Origin: Cohnella kolymensis
Lineage (GTDB): Bacteria; Bacillota; Bacilli; Paenibacillales; Paenibacillaceae
Reading direction: 5' to 3'
DNA length: 64,000 bases
Assembly (NCBI RefSeq): GCF_000829465.1
Contig: NZ_JXAL01000016.1
Span: forward strand, 62,001-126,000
Part shown: piece after piece, positions 35,964 to 45,679 of the stretch
Layout: every line of letters starts with the position of its first letter
Numbering within the stretch: position 1 is the stretch's first letter
Made by a program: the position numbers and the translations under genes
The notes under the pieces: model-generated
Told to the model about the DNA's origin: nothing
The model's database searches: none
What the model saw: only the letters and a program-made list of their open reading frames with translations

Positions 35964-36027
35964 CTATACTTAATAAACCCGTTTATAGGTTCCCAACGAT
36001 CCACTTTATTGATGAGGGGTGCTCGCT

Positions 36028-37379
36028 ATGATAAAAAGACATCTTGATGAAGCCGCCGTACAAACCTTGAAGGAAAAGATGAGTCAAGGACTATTCCCGC
36101 AATGGGTGCTGACGGATCCCGACGTGTATCTGATGGAGCTTGAACAAATATTCGGCAAGACCTGGCAGTTTTTAGCTCATGAAACCGAACTTAAGGAGAC
36201 TGGGGATTATATTACAAGATGGCTTGTTAACGATCCCGTCTTGCTGATCAAAAACGGTGAGGGCAAGATTAAGGCCTTTTTAAATTCATGTACACATCGC
36301 GGAACGCAGCTATGTACTGCAGACCGCGGTAATAAGAAAACATTCACATGCCCTTATCATGGCTGGAGCTACAACCGTGACGGGCAGCTGATCGGCATCG
36401 TTGCCGGGGATAAGGTTTACGGTGAGGAAATGACCAAATCGGAATGGGGATTGAAAGAAATTCCGAAGGTCGCTTCGTATCAGGGGATGATTTTCGGTAA
36501 CCTCGATCCCAATGCGGAATCTCTCGAAGATTATTTGGGAGATATGAATGGTATTTCGATATTCTTCTCGGCAGAGGCGACGGGGGCATGGAGGTCATCG
36601 GCCTTCCTCAACGCTGGGTCGCCAAGGCCAACTGGAAAGCGACACAGGAGAATTTCTCAGCCGACCCCTATCATGTTCAAACCACCCACCGCTCAACCGT
36701 TGAAATGGGCATCAGCCCGGAAGATCCGTTATATGCCGGTTATGGCCACCAGGTGGTCATGCAGAACGGGCACGGACTGAATGTCATCACATCTAAAACG
36801 GGCCGTTCCAGAGCGCCTTACCAGGGTATGCCCGAATCAATGTGGCCGATGTTTCAGCGTAATTTGAAGCCGGAGCAGGATGATATTTTATCGAGGACCA
36901 CTGTATTCGTTGGCGGAGTGTATCCGAACTTATCGTTTGTCAGCCCGATTCATGGTACGGAGGGGCATTTGCATAATTATTTGAATTTTCGGGTATGGCG
37001 CCCTTTGGCTCCTGATAAGGTTGAAGTATGGTGCTGGTTTATGATCGATAAAGCGGCTCCGGAGGAATACAAAAAGGCAGCCTACAAAGGGTACTTGGGC
37101 TCATTCGGTGTTTCCGGCACGCTGGAACAGGACGATACCGAAACTTGGGCGCGCATCGTCGAGGTAAGCGGCGGGCTGATGATGCGGGACAAACAGCTGA
37201 ACTACAATAATGTGAGCAATTACCTGATGGGCTTCAGTCATGTTGAGCCCGATCCGACATTCGCAGGCCCGGGTACGGCCTACCCCACCACGTATATTGA
37301 TGCTCTCTCTAGAAGCATTCATGAACGCTGGCTCGAATTATTAACGAAGGATTTGATAATCGAGGGGGCGAGCAAATGA
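36028..37379 (+). CDS. Rieske ring-hydroxylating oxygenase alpha subunit (one frame break)
   Basis: About 450 residues. The Rieske cluster ligands are in SCTHRGTQLC (Cys-x-His) and CPYHGWSYN (Cys-x2-His); the mononuclear iron site is NFSADPYHVQTTH. The frame breaks near 36552: one base is missing before TATTTCGATATTC, after which GRGDGGMEVIG continues to the end. ATG at 36028 follows GAGGGG. With its beta subunit it inserts oxygen into an aromatic acid; electron-donor ferredoxin and reductase genes are not seen in this window. Substrate unknown (benzoate, phenylpropionate or similar). Confidence 0.88.
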
Positions 37380-37900
37380 GTTCGGAAACGAAAACACGAA
37401 TTCTTCCTGAGATCCAAATAGAGATTGCGGATTTTCTCTATCGGGAAGCATATCTGTTGGACCATCGGATGTATAAGGAATGGCTTGATTTACTATCGGA
37501 AGACATCGTCTATCGGATGCCGATGCGGGAAACGGTTGAGGGCGTGGGAGTAGATAACGTTGCATCTGATTCCGCTTTTTTCGATGAATCCAAGGCCGCT
37601 CTTACAACACGGGTGAATAGATATTATACCAAATCCGCATGGGTGGAAAATCCGGCAACACGGCAGCGGCACTTCATCAGTAACATCCGAGTAGAGTCCG
37701 GGTCAGGGCCCGACGAGTACAAGGTTGTGAGTTATTTCCTATATAAACGCAGTAGAGGATCCCATCCAGAGATCGAAGAGATGCTCGGCGAACGTCACGA
37801 CACGATCAAGCGGGTCAACGGGGATTGGAAGATTGCATCGCGAATCATCATCCCGGATCAAACGGTAATCACAACGATGAACATGAGTATGTTTCTATAA
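37376..37900 (+). CDS. Ring-hydroxylating oxygenase beta subunit
   Basis: 174 residues of the NTF2-like small-subunit family (FLYREAYLLDHRMYKEWLDL near the N-terminus, VNGDWKIASRIIIPDQTV near the end), most like 3-phenylpropionate/benzoate-type beta subunits. Overlaps the alpha gene by four bases. Structural partner giving an alpha3beta3 enzyme. Confidence 0.9.
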   Translation: MSSETKTRILPEIQIEIADFLYREAYLLDHRMYKEWLDLLSEDIVYRMPMRETVEGVGVDNVASDSAFFDESKAALTTRVNRYYTKSAWVENPATRQRHFISNIRVESGSGPDEYKVVSYFLYKRSRGSHPEIEEMLGERHDTIKRVNGDWKIASRIIIPDQTVITTMNMSMFL

Positions 37901-37910
37901 TACCGAAACG

Positions 37911-37938
37911 AAAAGAACCCTCGATCGAGGGTTCTTTT
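37911..37938 (+). terminator. Terminator after the Rieske oxygenase
   Basis: AAAAGAACCCTCGA and TCGAGGGTTCTTTT form a perfect palindrome-type hairpin. The rest of 37939-38205 holds a promoter but no gene. Confidence 0.85.
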
Positions 37939-38058
37939 CAATCTTTTTGACCACTCACGCAGGAGATGCAGGCAGTAGTGGTGTAATATTTGAAGGTGCT
38001 ATTTACCCAATACAAGTTTCATTGAAACGCATATTGGTAAAATTTCTGAAAAAAATTG

Positions 38059-38087
38059 TTGACGTCCGACAACGGGCATTCTATAAT
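38059..38087 (+). promoter_or_regulatory. Sigma-A-type promoter of the HTH/DUF5317/peptide unit
   Basis: TTGACG (38059-38064) and TATAAT (38082-38087) with an exact 17-base spacer. GTTG and CAAC in GTTGACGTCCGACAAC give an inverted repeat over the -35 box, a possible operator for the HTH protein encoded 120 bases downstream. Confidence 0.75.
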
Positions 38088-38205
38088 ATGGACAAGGAAG
38101 AAATTATTACATAATAGAACAAGGATTTGAAAAAGCTTTGCAATTGACCTGCACTTCACTCTCTTTGACAGAGGAGGAGAGAGGATAAACCCGCTGAACC
38201 AGATT

Positions 38206-38358
38206 ATGTCAACTGAAGAGGCGTCCAAGATTTGGGGTGTTCATCAAGATCATGTTAAGCGCTTGTGCCGGGAAGGGAAGGTAGTCTGCCGAAAATTCGG
38301 TAAGACCTATATTCTCCCTAAGAATCAACCGAAGCCAGGCAGCAGGACGCTCGTTTAA
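38206..38358 (+). CDS. 50-residue HTH (excisionase/MerR-like) DNA-binding protein
   Basis: The peptide is almost only a helix-turn-helix: MSTEEASKIWGVHQDHVKRL then REGKVVCRKFGKTYILPK, the layout of HTH_17 excisionase-type domains. A GGAGGAGAGAGG site lies 20-30 bases upstream, so an upstream CTG at 38194 could be the real start. It has no partner integrase nearby and begins the unit with DUF5317 and the twin peptides, 36 bases before DUF5317. Confidence 0.7.
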   Translation: MSTEEASKIWGVHQDHVKRLCREGKVVCRKFGKTYILPKNQPKPGSRTLV

Positions 38359-38393
38359 ATCCACTCCATGACAGAACGAAGGGATCTAAGTAC

Positions 38394-38975
38394 ATGGTTT
38401 ACGATGGCATCATAATTGGGTTAATAGCCGGTTTCATTAGGGCTGGATGGAAGAACGGCCTGGCGGCTTTATCCCAGATTCGAATTCGAGGCGGCTTGAT
38501 TTTTCCGGTATTGCTGTTGATCCAATTCTTGATGTACTTCCTGCATGACAAAGTGCCATTCATAGCCCTGTATAACGGATACTTTTTTATGGTGGTGTAT
38601 GTAGTCGGTCTCTATGTACTTTGGCTCAACCGAGAGCAAAAAGGATTTATGTTCATCTTTGCCGGCGTTGCATTAAATTTTCTCGTCATGTTGCTCAATG
38701 GTGGTAAGATGCCGGTCTCTTTAGAAGCAGCTTCGGTGCTTGACCCCATTTACGTTGAAATGTTGCAAGACGGTACAGCTGTATCCAAACATGCAGTTTT
38801 AACTGAATCAACACTGCTACCTTTTTTAGGCGATATCATTCCCCTTACGTCACCCTATCCTAGAGATCAAGCCATTAGTATTGGGGATGTCATCATGAAC
38901 TTTGGAATGTTTATATATCTACAAAATGTCATGCTGCTCCACAAACTCCGAACTTCCATTGTTGAGACAAAATAA
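38394..38975 (+). CDS. DUF5317-family membrane protein
   Basis: 193 residues with five or six predicted membrane spans and the conserved LNFLVMLLNGGKMPVS segment (family-typical Asn-Gly-Gly-x-Met-Pro). The family occurs in Firmicutes, Chloroflexi and others near HD-GYP and signalling genes, and has no known function. Here it is followed by the two 33-residue peptide genes and the GGDEF/HD-GYP gene, suggesting it works with them at the membrane. Confidence 0.8.
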   Translation: MVYDGIIIGLIAGFIRAGWKNGLAALSQIRIRGGLIFPVLLLIQFLMYFLHDKVPFIALYNGYFFMVVYVVGLYVLWLNREQKGFMFIFAGVALNFLVMLLNGGKMPVSLEAASVLDPIYVEMLQDGTAVSKHAVLTESTLLPFLGDIIPLTSPYPRDQAISIGDVIMNFGMFIYLQNVMLLHKLRTSIVETK

Positions 38976-39036
38976 CATAGATCGTCAAACTAATTAGCAG
39001 AACGAAACTACCAATCTGAGAGGAGATAAATTCAAT

Positions 39037-39138
39037 ATGAAAAAATTAGAGGGAATTAAAATCACTCGCATTCTGGTAAATGCCCTGATCGTAGCTTCTG
39101 TAGTTATCGCATTAACATCCGGTTTTAAAGTAAACTAA
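39037..39138 (+). CDS. 33-residue hydrophobic peptide, copy 1
   Basis: Basic N-terminus (MKKLEGIKITR), one hydrophobic stretch (ILVNALIVASVVIAL) and a short tail (TSGFKVN). GAGAGGAG lies nine bases before the ATG. The peptide is identical in all 33 residues to copy 2, yet 11 codons differ, all silently, which is strong evidence that it is translated and conserved. It could be a membrane micro-protein or a precursor of a secreted signal; I do not recognise it. Confidence 0.8.
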   Translation: MKKLEGIKITRILVNALIVASVVIALTSGFKVN

Positions 39139-39166
39139 ACCGCAAATAATTGGAGGATACATACAA

Positions 39167-39268
39167 ATGAAGAAATTAGAAGGAATCAAAATCACCCGCA
39201 TTCTGGTGAATGCATTGATCGTTGCTTCAGTAGTTATCGCATTAACTTCGGGTTTTAAAGTAAACTAA
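39167..39268 (+). CDS. 33-residue hydrophobic peptide, copy 2
   Basis: Same peptide as copy 1 with a different set of synonymous codons (positions 2, 5, 7, 10, 14, 16, 17, 19, 21, 27 and 28). Its own TTGGAGG site lies before the ATG, 28 bases after copy 1. Tandem duplication with separate ribosome sites suggests a need for dose, as for signal peptides or small membrane regulators. Confidence 0.8.
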   Translation: MKKLEGIKITRILVNALIVASVVIALTSGFKVN

Positions 39269-39298
39269 TCGGCCAACTTAGCCGATATATATCATATA

Positions 39299-39386
39299 AG
39301 AATTAAACATCACACATATTGTGATAAATGCTATAATTGTAGCATTAGTAATCAGGGATCTCACATCGGGTTTGAAAGTTAATTAA
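39299..39386 (+). pseudogene. Decayed third copy of the 33-residue peptide gene
   Basis: The reading ITHIVINAIIVALVI...LTSGLKVN, ending TAA, aligns with the last 26 residues of the two intact copies, but the start codon and ribosome site are gone, one base is inserted near 39308 and RD interrupts the hydrophobic core. It shows that the array was once longer. Confidence 0.7.
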
Positions 39387-39464
39387 GAATCTCTAATAGG
39401 GAAACAAGGTCTCCTTGTTTCCCTAATTATTATTTTACTTCGAACATGAAAGGTCGGAACAATA

Positions 39465-41321
39465 ATGGGGGCGACAGAAAGATTTTATTCACAGATACGT
39501 CAACCCGGGTTCTGTTATTCATTATTAGTATTCTTGGCTGGTGCGATCCTATGTATTGCCAATAATAAAAGTTTGTTTCGTTCCTATTCGCTTTCCGAGT
39601 GGGTAATGATTTACGCGATGGTCGGGGCTGTCCTTATTTTAGAGTATTTCATGTTTCAGCTTCCGCCGGAAGGAAATCGTCAGTCTATGGACTCATCAGT
39701 CTATCTGGCTGCTACCTTTGCGTATGGTGGGAATTTTGCTCTTATAATATTAATATTGGGAACGTTTGTATTATTGCTATATAAAAGACAAGTTGAATGG
39801 TGGAAACATCTGCTTAATTTTTCTACATACACACTCATGATCTATGGTGCAAACTTCACTTTTCATTTGTTGGGGGGCACAACAGGTGCTTTTGACATCA
39901 GGCATCTACATGCATATATTTTCGCATTAGCGGTCTATTTTTTTTGTGAATTGTCTTCTCGTTGGCTATTACTATTACCTACTGTATAAAGGCGTACTAT
40001 ATGAAATTATCAAAACGATTTTAACAGATGCCATTTTTGCTTATTTCAGTACTTTGCTGCTTTCTGTTGTTTTACTGATTCTGATCATAAATACCGGTAC
40101 ATTCGGACTTTTTTTATTTTTGGCTGTCGGCATGCTGCTATCCCATGGTTTTCGGCAATTATTTAAGATGTACAACGAAGTCAGCGACAAAGCGAACACA
40201 GACCAGCGAACAGGGCTCTATAGCCATAGTTATTTCGAGGAAAAGCTGGATGATTATATAAGTCAATCCCGGCTTGGTGGTACTCCATTGTGCTTAGCAA
40301 TGCTCGACCTGGACGATTTCAAGAAATATAATGACGCTTTCGGCCATCCGCAAGGTGATCGACTGCTTGGTTTCTTTGGTAAAATCGTCAAGGAAGAATG
40401 CGAACCCCACAACCTGTTCGCCGCTCGTTATGGCGGAGAGGAATTTGCTATCATCATGCCGGGCTTTACGAAGGTTAGAGCCAAGGAGTTTGTGGACGGT
40501 CTCCGAAAAAAAAGTGAATGATTCTCCTTTCGAAGGGGTAGACGTGTTTCCTCACGGCTGTGTTTCATTTTCGGCAGGCCTTCTTGAAGTAAATAAGGAA
40601 AGTTACGACAAGTCCCAATTGGTTGATTGGGCAGACCGCGCACTTTATGTAGCCAAGTCCAAAGGAAAGAATACCGTTTCCATCCATGGCGAAGACAACA
40701 AGCTGCCTCAACGGCTGGAACATGATATCAACGAAATTGAACAGCAGCTCAAATTTTTCTTATCCAAAGACGTCTATACGTTTAAACACTCCAAGAGGGT
40801 CTTCTCTTACGCAGTCGATATGGCCGAGATTCTGCATTTGAACAAGGAAGATCGGCGGCTGCTGGTATTGGGCGCATTGATTCATGATATAGGCAAGTTG
40901 GAGGTTCCGCGTGATATTCTGAATAAAAAAAACAAAGCTTACGAACGAAGAGTGGGAAATCGTCAAGAAGCATGTCATTTGGGGCAAAGAAATCGTAATG
41001 GTAAGAGATAAATATAAAGATTTGGCCCCGCTGGTTGAACTGCACCACGAACGGTTTGACGGCAAGGGTTATCCGCACGGGCTAAAGGAGCATGAAATTC
41101 CACGGCTTGCGAGAATGTTATGTGTCATTGACTCTTTTGACGCGATGACAACGGAGCGTCCATATCAGGAAACAAAATCATTTGACGAAGCTCTTTTGGA
41201 AATCAGGAGATGTTCGGGTACGCAATTTGATCCCGAGCTCGCCGAGCTCTTTATTGCCTATATTGAGGCCAAGATGGCTTCGAGCAACTCCTATGTTGCC
41301 GCGGACTTGGAGCAACAGTGA
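39465..41321 (+). CDS. Membrane GGDEF/HD-GYP protein (three frame breaks)
   Basis: About 618 codons. Residues 1-210 hold six or seven membrane spans; then a GGDEF domain with the active site intact (RYGGEEFAII); then an HD-GYP domain with LIHDIGKLEVP and HHERFDGKGYPHGL. Both cyclic-di-GMP synthesis and breakdown motifs are kept. Frame breaks lie near 39940 (extra T in a run of eight), 40511 (extra A in a run of eight) and 40928 (extra A in a run of eight). Follows the peptide genes by about 80 bases and ends the unit. Confidence 0.85.
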
Positions 41322-41340
41322 ACGAATATGCTTCATTTCT

Positions 41341-41366
41341 AAACCCTTATTCGATAAGGGTTTTTT
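41341..41366 (+). terminator. Terminator after the GGDEF/HD-GYP gene
   Basis: AAACCCTTAT pairs with ATAAGGGTTT around TCG, followed by T. Confidence 0.85.
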
Positions 41367-41389
41367 ATTTTCACCGCCTATTAAGTTCA

Positions 41390-41437
41390 TTGACACCGCT
41401 TTCATACCTTGTTATTATAAATTTAGATCGATCTAAA
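41390..41437 (+). promoter_or_regulatory. Promoter with LacI operator, start of the dehydroquinase operon
   Basis: TTGACA (41390-41395), 17 bases, TATTAT (41413-41418), then the palindrome TTTAGATCGATCTAAA at 41422-41437, over the expected transcription start. The same palindrome recurs at 44668, 47660, 47689 and 54365. Confidence 0.82.
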
Positions 41438-41461
41438 ATTGCCTATATCTTATGAAAAGAG

Positions 41462-41935
41462 ATGAGATCCTTGGCTGAACCCTATCTAATCGTTGTGAAT
41501 GGACCAAACTTAAACCGTTTAGGTCTCCGAGTGCCCGAGTTATATGGGAATAAGACTCTTCCCGATGTCATTGAGCTTGTTCGCTCTGTCGCAGCGCCGC
41601 AGGGAGTTGGCGTATTAGATATACAGTCCAATTATGAAGGTGAATTGATTGATTACTTGCAGGAACATGGCCCAGGTGCTGCGGGAATTATCATTAATCC
41701 AGGGGCATTCGGCCATTACAGCATTGCGCTGCGGGACTGCTTGGAGGACATCAGTCGGCCGACCATAGAAGTACATATAACAAACGTGCATAAGCGGGAG
41801 GAATTCCGCCACCATCTAGTATTATCTGCAGTAGTCACAGGCCAAATCGTCGGTCTCGGCATTGATGTGTATCTCTATGCTGCTGAAGCGCTTTGCAGCC
41901 GAATCAGACAGGAAAGAGACGGAGGTTCCACATAA
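41462..41935 (+). CDS. aroQ: Type II 3-dehydroquinate dehydratase
   Basis: 157 residues, normal for the dodecameric type II enzyme. VNGPNLNRLGLRVPELYG holds the catalytic Arg and Tyr; IINPGAFGHYSIALRD and EVHITNVHKREEF carry the substrate-binding and general-acid residues. It converts 3-dehydroquinate to 3-dehydroshikimate. Position behind a LacI operator and beside ring-cleavage genes suggests catabolic use (quinate or shikimate breakdown) rather than housekeeping biosynthesis. Confidence 0.92.
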   Translation: MRSLAEPYLIVVNGPNLNRLGLRVPELYGNKTLPDVIELVRSVAAPQGVGVLDIQSNYEGELIDYLQEHGPGAAGIIINPGAFGHYSIALRDCLEDISRPTIEVHITNVHKREEFRHHLVLSAVVTGQIVGLGIDVYLYAAEALCSRIRQERDGGST

Positions 41936-42845
41936 TGCGGGAAAGTCTTCACGATTTCATGCGGCTAGGCATTGTCCAGTTCATGGCGTTCCCTCAGTCT
42001 AAATCCAGCGAGCATTACTTGCGTACCATATCCGCAATTATTGAAGATGAATTTTTCGACTTGATTGAGATAACGTCCGCTCCTGATCAACAGACCGCTG
42101 AGCAGGTTCGGGCATTACTCCAAAGCTCAGGGGTTACGGTTGGTTTCAGTGCTCATCCGGTTCTGCTTGGAAATCAGGCCAATCTTAATGCGATGGAGGA
42201 AGAGGAGAGGCACAGAGCGGTTAATCTTGTGAAAGGTTCGATCGATGACGCCTATCATTTCGGCGCCGCTAACCTAGCTTTCATGTCAGGGAAAGATCCG
42301 GGACTGAGCTCAGGGAGCGGGCGCTGGGTTATCTAATCGAATCCATTCAGGAGATCTGCAGATATGCCCGATCCAAAGGCGACTTGGAGATTCTGTTGGA
42401 ACCGTTCGACCATGACACGGATTTTCGTTGTTTAATAGGACCTTCCGAACTGGCTGTCCAGGTTGCACAAGAGGTTCGAAAAGTCGACCCTACTTTTGGT
42501 CTAATGGTTGATTTGAGCCATTTGCCCATGCTCCGTGAATCGCCGGCGCAAGCATTAACTGCAACAAAGGATTATTTGAAGCATGCACATATAGGGAATT
42601 GTCTGATTCGTGATAAGAATGACCCTGTATATGGCGACAAGCATCCTCGTTTCGGTTACCCGGGAAGTGAGATTGGTGTGCCCGAATTAGCGGAATATTT
42701 GCGGACATTGATTGACATTGGCTACTTGGAAAAGGGAAAACGCCGAACACTGTCATTTGAAATCAAACCGGCTCCCGGGGAGTCCTCGGAAGTCGTGATC
42801 GCACAAGCCAAAAGGACACTGAGAGCTGCGTGGCAGCGAATATAG
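41935..42845 (+). CDS. Sugar phosphate isomerase/epimerase-type TIM barrel (one frame break)
   Basis: About 303 residues of the AP endonuclease 2/xylose isomerase-like family. ILLEPFDHDTD, GLMVDLSHLPM, KHAHIGNC and SFEIKPAPG mark the metal-binding strands. The ATG overlaps the aroQ stop (TAATG). One base is missing near 42308, after which LRERALGYLIE continues. The family includes isomerases and 3-dehydroshikimate dehydratases; this one could serve either as a hydroxyacid isomerase or in dehydroshikimate conversion. Exact role not clear. Confidence 0.78.
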
Positions 42846-42890
42846 CTCACAATATAGCTCATCCTCTGAGCTCACGGAAGGAGCAAGACG

Positions 42891-43523
42891 TTGGAAAACC
42901 CAAATGTCCGGAACATTTACTGCGTCGGTCGTAACTATTCTTCATTTGCGAAAGAGATGGGCAATAAAGTCTCTGAGACACCTATTATTTTCTTGAAACC
43001 TACACATTCATTGGTAAGTATGACCGGCAACGTCATTGAGCTGGCGGGATCCGTCGGTGAGGTGAATTGCGAAGCGGAAATTGTACTTCATATCGGACGC
43101 GATTTTCAGCCTGGAATTCAGATTGACGATCTGGTAAATCAATTCACTGTCGGTCTGGATTTTACCTATCGGGAACTATTGAACGACGTCAAAAAGAAGG
43201 GGCAGCCTTGGATGCCTGCGAAAGGCTTTCGAAATTCCTCATTAATAGGAAAGTTCCACACTTTCAAAAGCGAATCGGTAAAGGCGAATGATTTTAAACT
43301 TTTACAAAATGGCGAAGTCCTGCAGGTTGGCAATGTGCGGGATATGGTTTTTTCGCTGCAAACATTGGTTGACTTCATTGGGGAGCGCTATGGTCTGGGC
43401 CAAGGTGACCTGATCTACACCGGCACGCCGGAAGGGATAGCCAAACTACAGCATCAGGATACGCTCGAAATTCAGTGGGGGGCTGAGAATATAGGCTCCT
43501 GCAGAGTCAGTTTGAAATCATAA
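42891..43523 (+). CDS. Fumarylacetoacetate hydrolase-family protein
   Basis: 210 residues of the FAH fold. The metal site is formed by Glu residues in NCEAEIVLHIG and Asp in GLDFTYREL, with GKGFxxSS-like AKGFRNSSLIG and YTGTPEGIAKL. Family members hydrolyse, isomerise or decarboxylate 2-oxo-enoic products of ring cleavage. TTG start follows GGAAGGAG. Next to an extradiol dioxygenase, so it probably processes a ring-fission product. Confidence 0.85.
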   Translation: MENPNVRNIYCVGRNYSSFAKEMGNKVSETPIIFLKPTHSLVSMTGNVIELAGSVGEVNCEAEIVLHIGRDFQPGIQIDDLVNQFTVGLDFTYRELLNDVKKKGQPWMPAKGFRNSSLIGKFHTFKSESVKANDFKLLQNGEVLQVGNVRDMVFSLQTLVDFIGERYGLGQGDLIYTGTPEGIAKLQHQDTLEIQWGAENIGSCRVSLKS

Positions 43524-43542
43524 TAGAGAGGCGGGCATCATT

Positions 43543-44346
43543 ATGTCACTTGAGTTAGCTCTTCTGAGTTCGCATGCGCCTTCCCTTCTGCATGAGGATC
43601 AGGTGCCTGATTTTCAGCAGTCTATCGTGAAGGCCTTTCATCAGCAGCGGGAAAAAATAAAACAAGTAAAGCCGGATGTCCTTATCATGATTTCCAGTCA
43701 CTTTCTGACGAATTGGAATCACTATGTTGATGCTACACCACGGCATGAAGGCTATTTAACGGCGCGTGAACACCCTGATATGATCGCGAATATTCCCTTT
43801 AACTATCCTGGAGACGAAGAATTGGGCTATCAGCTGGCGCAAGCCGGCAAAGACGCCGGCATACCGGCCGTTGCCTTTAAGGAGCCGACATATATTTGGG
43901 ACTATGGTGTTCTTGTGCCGCTTCGGTACTTTGTTCCGGATGGAGATATTGCTGTCATTGACTTGTCATGTAACATGTCGGCTTCGCTTGAAGAGACTTA
44001 CCGTTGGGGTCAGCAAATCGGAAAAGTACTGAGAGAAAGCAACAAGCGGGCAGTTCTGGCCAGCAGCGGAGCTTTGTCTCATCATCTTACCCGCGGCCGC
44101 GCGAATATGCCTTCCCTAGCAGAAAAAGCATTGGACGACAAATTCATAGAGTTTCTCGTAGAGGGCAAATATGATTCCGCTTGGGATATTCTCCCTCAGT
44201 TTTCTGCGGCGGCCGATGTTGAGTCCGGAGGGAGACACGTGGCAGCGCTTTTAGGAGCACTCGGCAATGATTTTAATGCTTCATACTTGGGTTATGCGCA
44301 ATCTTCCGGCAGCGGCAACCCTCACTTCTCGTTCCAACCTAAATAA
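43543..44346 (+). CDS. LigB-type extradiol ring-cleavage dioxygenase, candidate protocatechuate 2,3-dioxygenase
   Basis: 267 residues of the class III (LigB) extradiol family. Candidate iron ligands are His in LSSHAPS and MISSHFL and a late Glu (ADVESGG); catalytic His lies in GALSHHL. It opens catechol-type rings with O2. The downstream praBEGFDCH-type cluster needs a protocatechuate 2,3-dioxygenase (PraA) and none lies beside it, so this gene is the natural candidate. That assignment is inference from pathway logic. Confidence 0.82.
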   Translation: MSLELALLSSHAPSLLHEDQVPDFQQSIVKAFHQQREKIKQVKPDVLIMISSHFLTNWNHYVDATPRHEGYLTAREHPDMIANIPFNYPGDEELGYQLAQAGKDAGIPAVAFKEPTYIWDYGVLVPLRYFVPDGDIAVIDLSCNMSASLEETYRWGQQIGKVLRESNKRAVLASSGALSHHLTRGRANMPSLAEKALDDKFIEFLVEGKYDSAWDILPQFSAAADVESGGRHVAALLGALGNDFNASYLGYAQSSGSGNPHFSFQPK

Positions 44347-44362
44347 GGAGAGATTCGATACA

Positions 44363-44632
44363 ATGAAGTATTTTGCAGTCATTACGACAATGCTCAGTCT
44401 GGAACTGAACAAGCAGTACCGCGAGGAACATCTGGATTATTTGAAGGGGCTTTCCAAAGAGGGCAAGGTTTTTGCTAAAGGCAGATTTTCTGACGGAACC
44501 GGTGGTTTAGTGATCTATAAGGCTGATGCTATAGAAGATGTAAGATCAATGGTTGAAAATGATCCGTTTATTTTTCAGGGTGCGCGCAGTTATGAAATTC
44601 ACGAATGGGAAATGACGCTGATCCAACAATAG
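44363..44632 (+). CDS. YciI-family small protein
   Basis: 89 residues with the ferredoxin-like YCII fold (MKYFAVITTMLS, EEHLDYLKGLSKEGKVFAKG, VENDPFIFQGARSYEIHEW). Relatives include muconolactone isomerase-like proteins and chloroquinol-converting enzymes, so a tautomerase or isomerase step on a ring-fission product is possible. GGAG lies before the ATG; last gene of this sub-operon. Confidence 0.8.
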   Translation: MKYFAVITTMLSLELNKQYREEHLDYLKGLSKEGKVFAKGRFSDGTGGLVIYKADAIEDVRSMVENDPFIFQGARSYEIHEWEMTLIQQ

Positions 44633-44667
44633 TATAGCGTTTGATAGGCTTACAATTATGAAATCCA

Positions 44668-44683
44668 TTTAGATCGATCCAAA
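44668..44683. promoter_or_regulatory. LacI-type operator before the MDR dehydrogenase
   Basis: TTTAGATCGATCCAAA, one base off the perfect palindrome, ends 15 bases before the dehydrogenase ATG. Confidence 0.75.
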
Positions 44684-44698
44684 TGACGGAGGGATTAC

Positions 44699-45679
44699 AT
44701 GCTGGAATTATTTCTGACAAATCCGACGGAGCTGCAATTGAGAACCGTTGACGCTCTACCCTCGCCAAAAGGGGATGAAATCAAGATAAAAACATCGTAT
44801 GGAGGAATTTGCGGATCCGATGTCTCTGTCTATAGAGGTAAACTTCCGCATGCAACTTATCCTCTGCGCCCCGGACATGAATTGGTAGGAACGGTGATCG
44901 AGGCAGGCCCGCAGGCGTCGTACCCTGTCGGTACGCGCGTGGTAATCCTCCCCAACACTTTTTGCGGTGAATGCGATTTGTGCTTGAAGGGACATACGAA
45001 TATCTGCCGTCACAAAAAATCGCTGGGAGTTAATTCGAACGGCGGCTTTTCGGAGGAGTTTGTTATTTCCTCCAAGTTTGCCCTTTCGCTTCCGGATGAC
45101 CTGCCGGATGAAAAAGCGGTATTAATCGAGCCGCTTGCGGTTGTCGTTCATGCTTTTAAAAAGGTTAACATAACAAAGGGCACGTCGGTGGCAATTGTAG
45201 GGAGCGGAAATGAGGGTATGCTGGCTTCTGCATTGGCCTACTATTTAGGAGCTCATGTGACTGCCATTGATATCAACCCAAAGAAACTTGAAATCATTAA
45301 AAGCATCGGAGATATTAATGCCGTTTATCCTTCGGACATACACGATGAGACATTCGATGTTGTGATCGAGGCTGCGGGTGTCAGAAGTTCCGTGGAACAG
45401 GGCATCGAATTGGTCAAGCCGGGAGGTGCGATGGTTTTAATCGGAATGACGCCGGAAGCCAATATTCCGGTTATTCAACTGGTCCGGAAGGAATTGACCT
45501 TACTCGGAACGATCATCTATAACTTCCCGTCAGACTATCAGCAGACAATCGAATATTTGCAAGACCCGAATTTGAATATTTCTCCTATCGTTTCGAAAAT
45601 TGTCCCATTAACGGAATATCAAAGCGCATATGAGAGTGCTCTATCCGGAGATTACGGCAAGATTGTTTTCAAGTTCTAA
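44699..45679 (+). CDS. Zinc-dependent MDR alcohol/polyol dehydrogenase
   Basis: 326 residues. Catalytic zinc ligands: Cys in GGICGSDVS, His-Glu in GHELVG; structural zinc Cys cluster in CGECDLCLKGHTNIC; NAD fold around GSGNEGML. Resembles sorbitol/threonine-type dehydrogenases. In this regulon it may oxidise a ring hydroxyl such as that of quinate or shikimate, but that is a guess from context. Confidence 0.88.
   Translation: MLELFLTNPTELQLRTVDALPSPKGDEIKIKTSYGGICGSDVSVYRGKLPHATYPLRPGHELVGTVIEAGPQASYPVGTRVVILPNTFCGECDLCLKGHTNICRHKKSLGVNSNGGFSEEFVISSKFALSLPDDLPDEKAVLIEPLAVVVHAFKKVNITKGTSVAIVGSGNEGMLASALAYYLGAHVTAIDINPKKLEIIKSIGDINAVYPSDIHDETFDVVIEAAGVRSSVEQGIELVKPGGAMVLIGMTPEANIPVIQLVRKELTLLGTIIYNFPSDYQQTIEYLQDPNLNISPIVSKIVPLTEYQSAYESALSGDYGKIVFKF

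Follow-up and report, generated by a model that had tools for sequence, protein, structure and literature searches.

A micropeptide array between the DUF5317 and GGDEF/HD-GYP genes

The window analysed here is a 64,000-nucleotide stretch of Cohnella kolymensis DNA (contig NZ_JXAL01000016.1, positions 62,001 to 126,000; source assembly G000 of 4.34 Mb in 34 contigs). In it we characterized a small module encoding a 33-residue putative membrane peptide between a DUF5317 membrane protein and a membrane GGDEF/HD-GYP protein predicted to act in cyclic di-GMP (c-di-GMP) signalling. All features of the module lie on the plus strand. Two tandem open reading frames (ORFs), at positions 39037-39138 and 39167-39268, encode one identical peptide with the C-terminal tail FKVN. 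As the original prediction had reported, the two copies differ in 11 of 34 codons (stop counted), by 11 nucleotides, every one of them silent, and each copy has its own Shine-Dalgarno motif upstream. Only 75 of the 297 single changes possible in copy 1 would be silent, which puts the probability of 11 silent changes out of 11 at about 3e-7; the DNA of the tail is identical in both copies. The decayed third copy already noticed in the original prediction lies at 39303-39386. It lacks a start codon, reads LNITHIVINAIIVALVIRDLTSGLKVN with a stop directly upstream, and has drifted in sequence, its C-terminal end still being LKVN. A clear Shine-Dalgarno motif was found before 44 of the 45 peptide copies inspected (exception, locus L032), and a laxly defined one before 77 of 78 peptide genes in named loci.

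The gene upstream of the array (38394-38975) encodes the DUF5317 protein, a member of PF17248 (160.3 bits against a gathering cut-off of 25, E = 4e-47). It is preceded by an excisionase-like helix-turn-helix (HTH) ORF of 50 residues (38206-38358; HTH_17 match, E = 1e-6), and both assignments agree with what had been predicted. A terminator-like hairpin of 13 bp (39397-39425) closes the array, between the peptide genes and the enzyme gene (39465-41321). This last gene was expected to encode a GGDEF/HD-GYP protein; the domains and motifs were recovered, but not as a single intact frame. Alignment to a relative gave four collinear pieces (39465-39944, 40003-40512, 40508-40936 and 40926-41291), and the three frameshifts, at about 39938, 40506 and 40925, coincide with homopolymers of 8 T, 8 A and 8 A and leave the catalytic motifs intact. 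HDIGK and HHERFDGKGYP, the HD and GYP motifs, are present in the pieces. HD_5 scored 24.9 and 72.1 bits on two of them (cut-off 27.2), and HD scored 37.6 and 23.2 bits on the same two (cut-off 22). The GGDEF domain was matched at E = 8e-24, with a YGGEEF active-site motif. By its motifs, the window enzyme is thus predicted to be both an HD-GYP phosphodiesterase and a diguanylate cyclase. All three motifs, GG(D/E)EF included, were present in 42 of 63 relatives, as judged by a pattern search in any forward frame of the locus.

Distribution of the peptide and its association with DUF5317

The genomes of 60 relatives were searched with a single sequence, independently of the loci-built model used below. 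The peptide was found in 15 of them at E <= 1.3e-7, all among the 18 that carry DUF5317. The three DUF5317 relatives without a peptide match were G024, where the locus meets a contig edge, and G048 and G056, where DUF5317 is divergent. Within the genus, the peptide was present in 11 of 37 genomes and DUF5317 in 12, the twelfth being G024. Across the class, DUF5317 was detected in 95 of 398 genomes and the peptide in 30 (E <= 1e-5), all among those 95; by eye on the listed positions, all 30 peptides lie on the same strand as DUF5317 and just downstream from it. At the level of the order, 128 of 392 genomes carry the peptide.

Comparison of 71 DUF5317 loci from named genomes (63 Bacillales and 8 distant) gave a similar association. 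The original prediction had staked itself on the conservation of the peptide and of its DUF5317 and GGDEF/HD-GYP neighbourhood in related genomes, and on this point it stands: the peptide follows DUF5317 in 62 of the 63 Bacillales loci, and the one locus without it (L035) stops at a contig edge 50 bases past DUF5317. The peptide was found in none of the 8 distant loci. Because these loci also served to build the peptide model behind the 63-locus count, the E-values of that model are not independent. The order of the module is DUF5317, peptide (one to five copies) and membrane GGDEF/HD-GYP protein, with flanks that vary by genus. The DUF5317 and enzyme families were common to 69 and 66 of 72 loci, respectively, the next most frequent family reaching 16, and the peptide is tied no less strictly to DUF5317 than to the enzyme.

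This strict linkage to both genes bears on one way of reading such arrays. Short hydrophobic peptides in tandem could form a type I toxin array with antisense RNAs, like the Ldr and Ibs toxins, or a leaderless bacteriocin with DUF5317 as its immunity protein, and three weak terminator-like matches on the minus strand, in or beside copy 2, would suit the former. We consider this reading very improbable: besides the linkage and the clear ribosome sites before 44 of 45 copies, no promoter-like site was found on the minus strand of the intact copies, the nearest (39364-39336, 9/12) lying in the decayed one.

The Geobacillus and Anoxybacillus loci and most loci labelled Paenibacillus have a single copy. 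Two to five copies were found in 9 of the 11 genomes of the window's genus that carry the peptide, and two or three in all 6 of a further genus (g7). In Geobacillus thermocatenulatus (L080, 5711-9931), about 4 kb of other sequence lies between the peptide and the enzyme gene. Among 25 divergent loci, L118 and L120 were not judgeable and a diverged peptide was detected in three, as one copy in L105 and L106 and as five tandem copies in L108. The array of L108 (2020-2533, minus strand) consists of 25-residue peptides ending in SATSGWYYY, between DUF5317 and the enzyme, and in this distant family it is apparently an independent amplification. In L095, L110, L111 and L117, DUF5317 overlaps the enzyme gene and leaves no room for a peptide. 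We infer that the pair of DUF5317 and enzyme is older and that the peptide was added to it in one large lineage. In a natural fusion protein of 860 residues (L123, 273-2852), DUF5317 is combined with a membrane region, with an HD domain and with a histidine-kinase-like ATPase domain. This fusion supports a functional connection of DUF5317 with HD proteins. Plasmid carriage was considered and rejected, with one partial DUF5317 match among 72,556 plasmids.

The window peptide matched no NCBIfam family at E <= 1. Pfam searches of 31 related peptides returned weak matches only, the best (E = 0.0049) to DUF6366 in 3 of 31; we took these for chance matches of hydrophobic composition and rejected DUF6366 as the identity of the peptides. 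The NCBIfam model of MgtU (NF040924) did not match the window peptide and weakly matched 4 of the 31 relatives (best E = 0.0021). Prli42 is a miniprotein of the Listeria stressosome; the NCBIfam search of the peptides gave no match of that name, the presence of a Prli42 model in the library not having been checked.

One C-terminal tail per genome

The original prediction of strong selection on the peptide was borne out by the proportions of synonymous (pS) and nonsynonymous (pN) sites that differ: 0.42 against 0.047 within genomes (pairs from 14 genomes, L108 included) and 0.68 against 0.139 between nine Cohnella-type genomes. Residues N15, S21 and L26 are invariant in the 31 relatives, and A25, T27, S28 and G29 nearly so. 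The four residues that follow the conserved TSG (positions +1 to +4), on which tandem copies were aligned, are referred to as the tail. In 36 copies from 14 genomes (nine Cohnella-type and five of g7), amino-acid changes were counted by parsimony on a tree of DUF5317 and the enzyme, with the copies of one genome treated as one group, which is an assumption. The tail changed 0 times within and 14 times between genomes, against 53 and 28 changes elsewhere in the peptide (Fisher p = 2.6e-6). For the block from -4 to +4, the counts were 0 and 16 against 53 and 26 (p = 3e-7). L108, with five copies all ending in WYYY, was omitted from this test because most of its copies are young. Outside the tested range, at position +6, one of the three copies of L037 differs (FKIGGN, FKIGGL, FKIGGN).

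The same pattern is visible in raw pair-sites of the nine Cohnella-type genomes. Tail residues differed at 0 of 104 pair-sites within genomes and at 460 of 1096 between them. In the N-terminus, 24 of 208 pair-sites differed within genomes and 507 of 2192 between them; in the core, 51 of 468 differed within and 929 of 4932 between. Silent variation is nonetheless found within genomes, in 30 of 123 same-residue codon pairs of the tail, 228 of 599 of the N-terminus and membrane core, and 66 of 165 of ALTSG, and, L108 aside, the spacers after the stop codons have identities below 0.65 in 28 of 33 pairs from one genome (most spacers of L108 itself are nearly identical). Because the tail codons vary silently and the spacers have diverged, recent duplication or conversion is no general explanation of the common tail. 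Even copies that have reached or nearly reached silent saturation, as some in L033, L034 and L064 have, share their tail. Gene conversion limited to the tail was considered as well and found unsupported, since silent differences persist in tail codons, though fewer. From these sequence comparisons, it looks as if one tail per genome is kept by selection, the tail being a recognition element whose partner differs between species.

This pattern is where the hypothesis of a structural small subunit or chaperone of DUF5317 alone, with no signalling and with tandem copies raising only the dosage, fares worst. The peptide strictly follows DUF5317, sits before the hairpin and has a conserved core, all as such a subunit would; a tail that changes faster per site than the core between species, yet not within a genome, is not what it predicts, and we judge it unlikely.

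The tail pattern alone cannot separate a membrane subunit from a released pheromone, which makes the latter the main rival explanation. The core would then be a leader, and the C-terminal residues, cut near the conserved LTSG and released as a short signal specific to the species, would be perceived by DUF5317 or by the S-component-type domain of the enzyme, which would make c-di-GMP depend on cell density. Tails identical within genomes and variable between species resemble pherotypes, and tandem copies, with a hairpin that could yield more peptide than enzyme, would suit a secreted signal. SHP/Rgg and other RRNPP pheromones similarly pair a tiny hydrophobic precursor that has a species-specific C terminus with a supposed receptor encoded beside it. 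In the present module, however, the supposed receptor is a membrane c-di-GMP module, and the sole DNA-binding neighbour is the 50-residue HTH_17 protein. The adjacent cytoplasmic peptide-binding regulator typical of RRNPP/SHP systems was not found, the neighbours being HTH_17, DUF5317 and GGDEF/HD-GYP proteins. The three invariant residues make the membrane core more conserved than a leader requires, all 69 loci compared have K, R or Q as the second residue of the tail, and one ending, YKLGG, recurs in many Paenibacillus. No third family such as a protease or exporter is common to the neighbourhoods, although one could lie elsewhere. We consider a released pheromone rather unlikely.

Predicted structures, expression and putative function

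The charge of the N-terminus exceeded that of the tail in 29 of 31 peptides, which suggests an N-in, C-out topology, with the tail probably extracellular. The model of DUF5317 (predicted local distance difference test, pLDDT, 80) was read as five long membrane helices. Its best-conserved stretches (NGG.MPVS, KH, FLGDIIP and S.GD) lie in or just after the polar region 102-160, which would face outside according to the positive-inside rule. A fold search with this model returned no significant match in the PDB, which is no proof of a new fold. The sensor part of the enzyme was modelled from the N-terminal 240 residues of the enzyme of a relative (L064) rather than from the broken window gene (pLDDT 87.5). 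VIA-align returned 21 S-component entries of energy-coupling factor (ECF) transporters at Z 10.3-15.7, of which we take 4m5b, 4m58 and 4huq to be S-components, the rest being assigned by title; the next entry scored 5.9. This gap counts more than the Z value itself, because helical bundles can reach Z 13-14 by arrangement alone. The best Foldseek match had E = 1.3e-3 with a probability of 1.00, none reaching E <= 0.001. The membrane part of the enzyme thus models as an ECF S-component fold. In five enzymes, Pfam gave no match to 5TMR-LYT (PF07694) at E <= 0.5, and MASE9 was rejected as the identity of the sensor, with one weak match (E = 0.0025) in one of the five; the single paper found to mention MASE9 deals with colorectal cancer.

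PMC11109136 describes receptors of S-component fold, the 5TMR-LYT sensor kinases, as a leading helix and a six-helix S-component core followed by cytosolic signalling domains, and GGDEF is one of the cytosolic domains that it gives as partners of 5TMR. Because the S-component fold is thereby already tied to GGDEF receptors, the enzyme may be seen as a variant of a known receptor type. It differs from 5TMR-LYT receptors in that its cytosolic part combines GGDEF with HD-GYP and that a micropeptide is encoded alongside.

Hairpins after the array are common in the module. In the window and 62 further loci, the first 80 nt after the array (a few of these pieces reach the enzyme start) contain a hairpin with a T run in 43 of 63 cases, against 18 of 1260 mononucleotide shuffles; with no T run required, the counts are 53 of 63 and 74 of 1260. 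A wider scan of 260 nt found hairpins in 49 of 63 loci against 70 of 630 shuffles, some of them inside the enzyme gene. In 20 of the 63 loci, about half of them close relatives, the hairpin has the form AAACAGG..CCTGTTT, each only after peptide genes (for example L033 at 5990, L045 at 5749 and L052 at 5758). This form is absent from the window, where the hairpin is spelt AAACAAGG. Keeping sequence as well as pairing goes perhaps beyond what a plain terminator needs, and the AAACAGG..CCTGTTT hairpin may bind a regulator. A hairpin after the last copy at most loci is also what one would expect if the array encoded attenuator leader peptides, whose translation controls the hairpin before the enzyme gene. 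That the amino acids and not the codons are conserved, and that the peptide has a full membrane span and a species-specific tail, makes us give this idea hardly any weight.

Upstream of the HTH ORF, the promoter TTGACG-17-TATAAT (38059-38087), described in the original prediction as perfect, matches 11 of 12 consensus bases. The region holds 10 such promoter-like matches, no fewer than the 8.1 +/- 2.4 of shuffled sequence; this one is credible because it is conserved in nine aligned Cohnella-type relatives. The spacer of these nine holds the near-palindrome GTCCGnnGTCGGAC, the second half of which is degenerate in the window, with three mismatches to the pattern. Without mismatch, the pattern TTGACGTCCGnnGTCGGACA was found in 11 of the 37 genus genomes (G003, G013, G018, G021, G024-G026 and G028-G031). 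Each of these 11 has a single copy, located upstream of the module, and belongs to the 12 genomes with DUF5317; the 25 genomes that lack DUF5317 have no exact copy. When one or two mismatches were allowed, other places matched too, with some match present in 23 of 37 genomes, and a reversed control pattern likewise gave single matches. Among the loci fetched, the 50-residue HTH protein was seen only in Cohnella-type loci, upstream of DUF5317, and would be a natural candidate to bind the promoter palindrome.

In the window, the module is embedded in a cluster resembling those for aromatic degradation (36019-45679), with genes for dioxygenase alpha and beta subunits, a type II dehydroquinase, an FAA hydrolase, a LigB-type ring-opening dioxygenase, YCII and a zinc dehydrogenase. 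An Rfam scan of 36000-43000 gave two matches far under the gathering score and did not find a c-di-GMP riboswitch. Two adjacent genes are also split between frames (36019-37379 and 41893-42845), which makes this a frameshift-rich stretch; of the neighbours concerned, the ring-hydroxylating dioxygenase alpha subunit gene has its break close to a run of 5 G, and the break in a xylose-isomerase-like TIM-barrel gene has no long run nearby. Because these genes are broken too, sequencing error is the likelier cause of the breaks in the enzyme gene. Real decay of the locus in this strain is possible, because its promoter palindrome is degenerate where 11 other genomes keep the exact form.

Taken together, we propose, at roughly even odds (probability about 0.5), that the peptide is a single-span membrane micro-subunit, with its N-terminus inside and its C-terminus outside, of a c-di-GMP signalling module, and that its outward tail docks on the sensor. 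The peptide would be produced in excess over the enzyme, as the hairpin could end or stabilise the DUF5317-peptide transcript. Its core would pack against DUF5317 and/or the S-component-type sensor domain of the enzyme, and its tail would dock on the extracellular face of DUF5317 or of the sensor, setting or gating the latter; the gated sensor would shift the balance between c-di-GMP synthesis by GGDEF and breakdown by HD-GYP. As all copies would have to fit the same partner, their tails would change together. In Cohnella-type genomes, the palindrome may be the site by which the HTH protein acts on the promoter. The original prediction had suggested a membrane micro-regulator or a signal that the c-di-GMP protein reads, which we keep as a conjecture. 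A more specific proposal, which we regard as somewhat unlikely, is that the tail itself serves as the ligand, either tethered or released, of an S-component-type c-di-GMP receptor, tandem ligand genes being kept in one pherotype by selection.

Several points weigh against the micro-subunit model. The enzyme did not read as one open frame in the window assembly, owing to its three frameshifts. Several distant pairs of DUF5317 and enzyme leave no room for the peptide, which is thus no general part of the module. The topology was derived from charge, and the excess of peptide over enzyme from the hairpin. The boundary of the tail was chosen after seeing the data and spans few sites, and silent change is somewhat rarer in the tail than elsewhere (0.24 against 0.38-0.40). 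Co-change of the tail with residues of DUF5317 or the sensor reached p = 5.6e-6 in the best of 1176 raw tests; once branch length was controlled for, p was 0.0025 at best among 278 columns and none survives, so that co-change points to no partner.

MgrB, SafA, AcrZ, CydX, KdpF and MgtU are short one-span proteins acting on a larger membrane partner; several are encoded beside their target, and CydX and KdpF are small structural subunits of their complexes. The peptide resembles them in its length and single span, and differs in its tandem array, its one tail per genome and its link to c-di-GMP. We know of no small membrane protein of the MgrB or CydX kind that is encoded in tandem copies with matching tails inside each species and different tails across species. 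Among the literature matches listed, no title or start of abstract described such a module, and no paper mentioning DUF5317 was found in open-licence PMC.

The window protein is a member of the DUF5317 family, and the link of this family to a micropeptide array is what the present analysis adds: DUF5317 gains a candidate partner, a conserved context and a testable handle. The peptide itself, without a curated family above threshold, is nevertheless present in about a third (128 of 392) of the genomes of the order. Should its tail prove to be a recognition element, a swap of four residues would allow a direct test of what a widespread c-di-GMP enzyme of Bacillales takes as its input, and if the tail is the ligand, the module would be a peptide-keyed c-di-GMP receptor of Bacillales.

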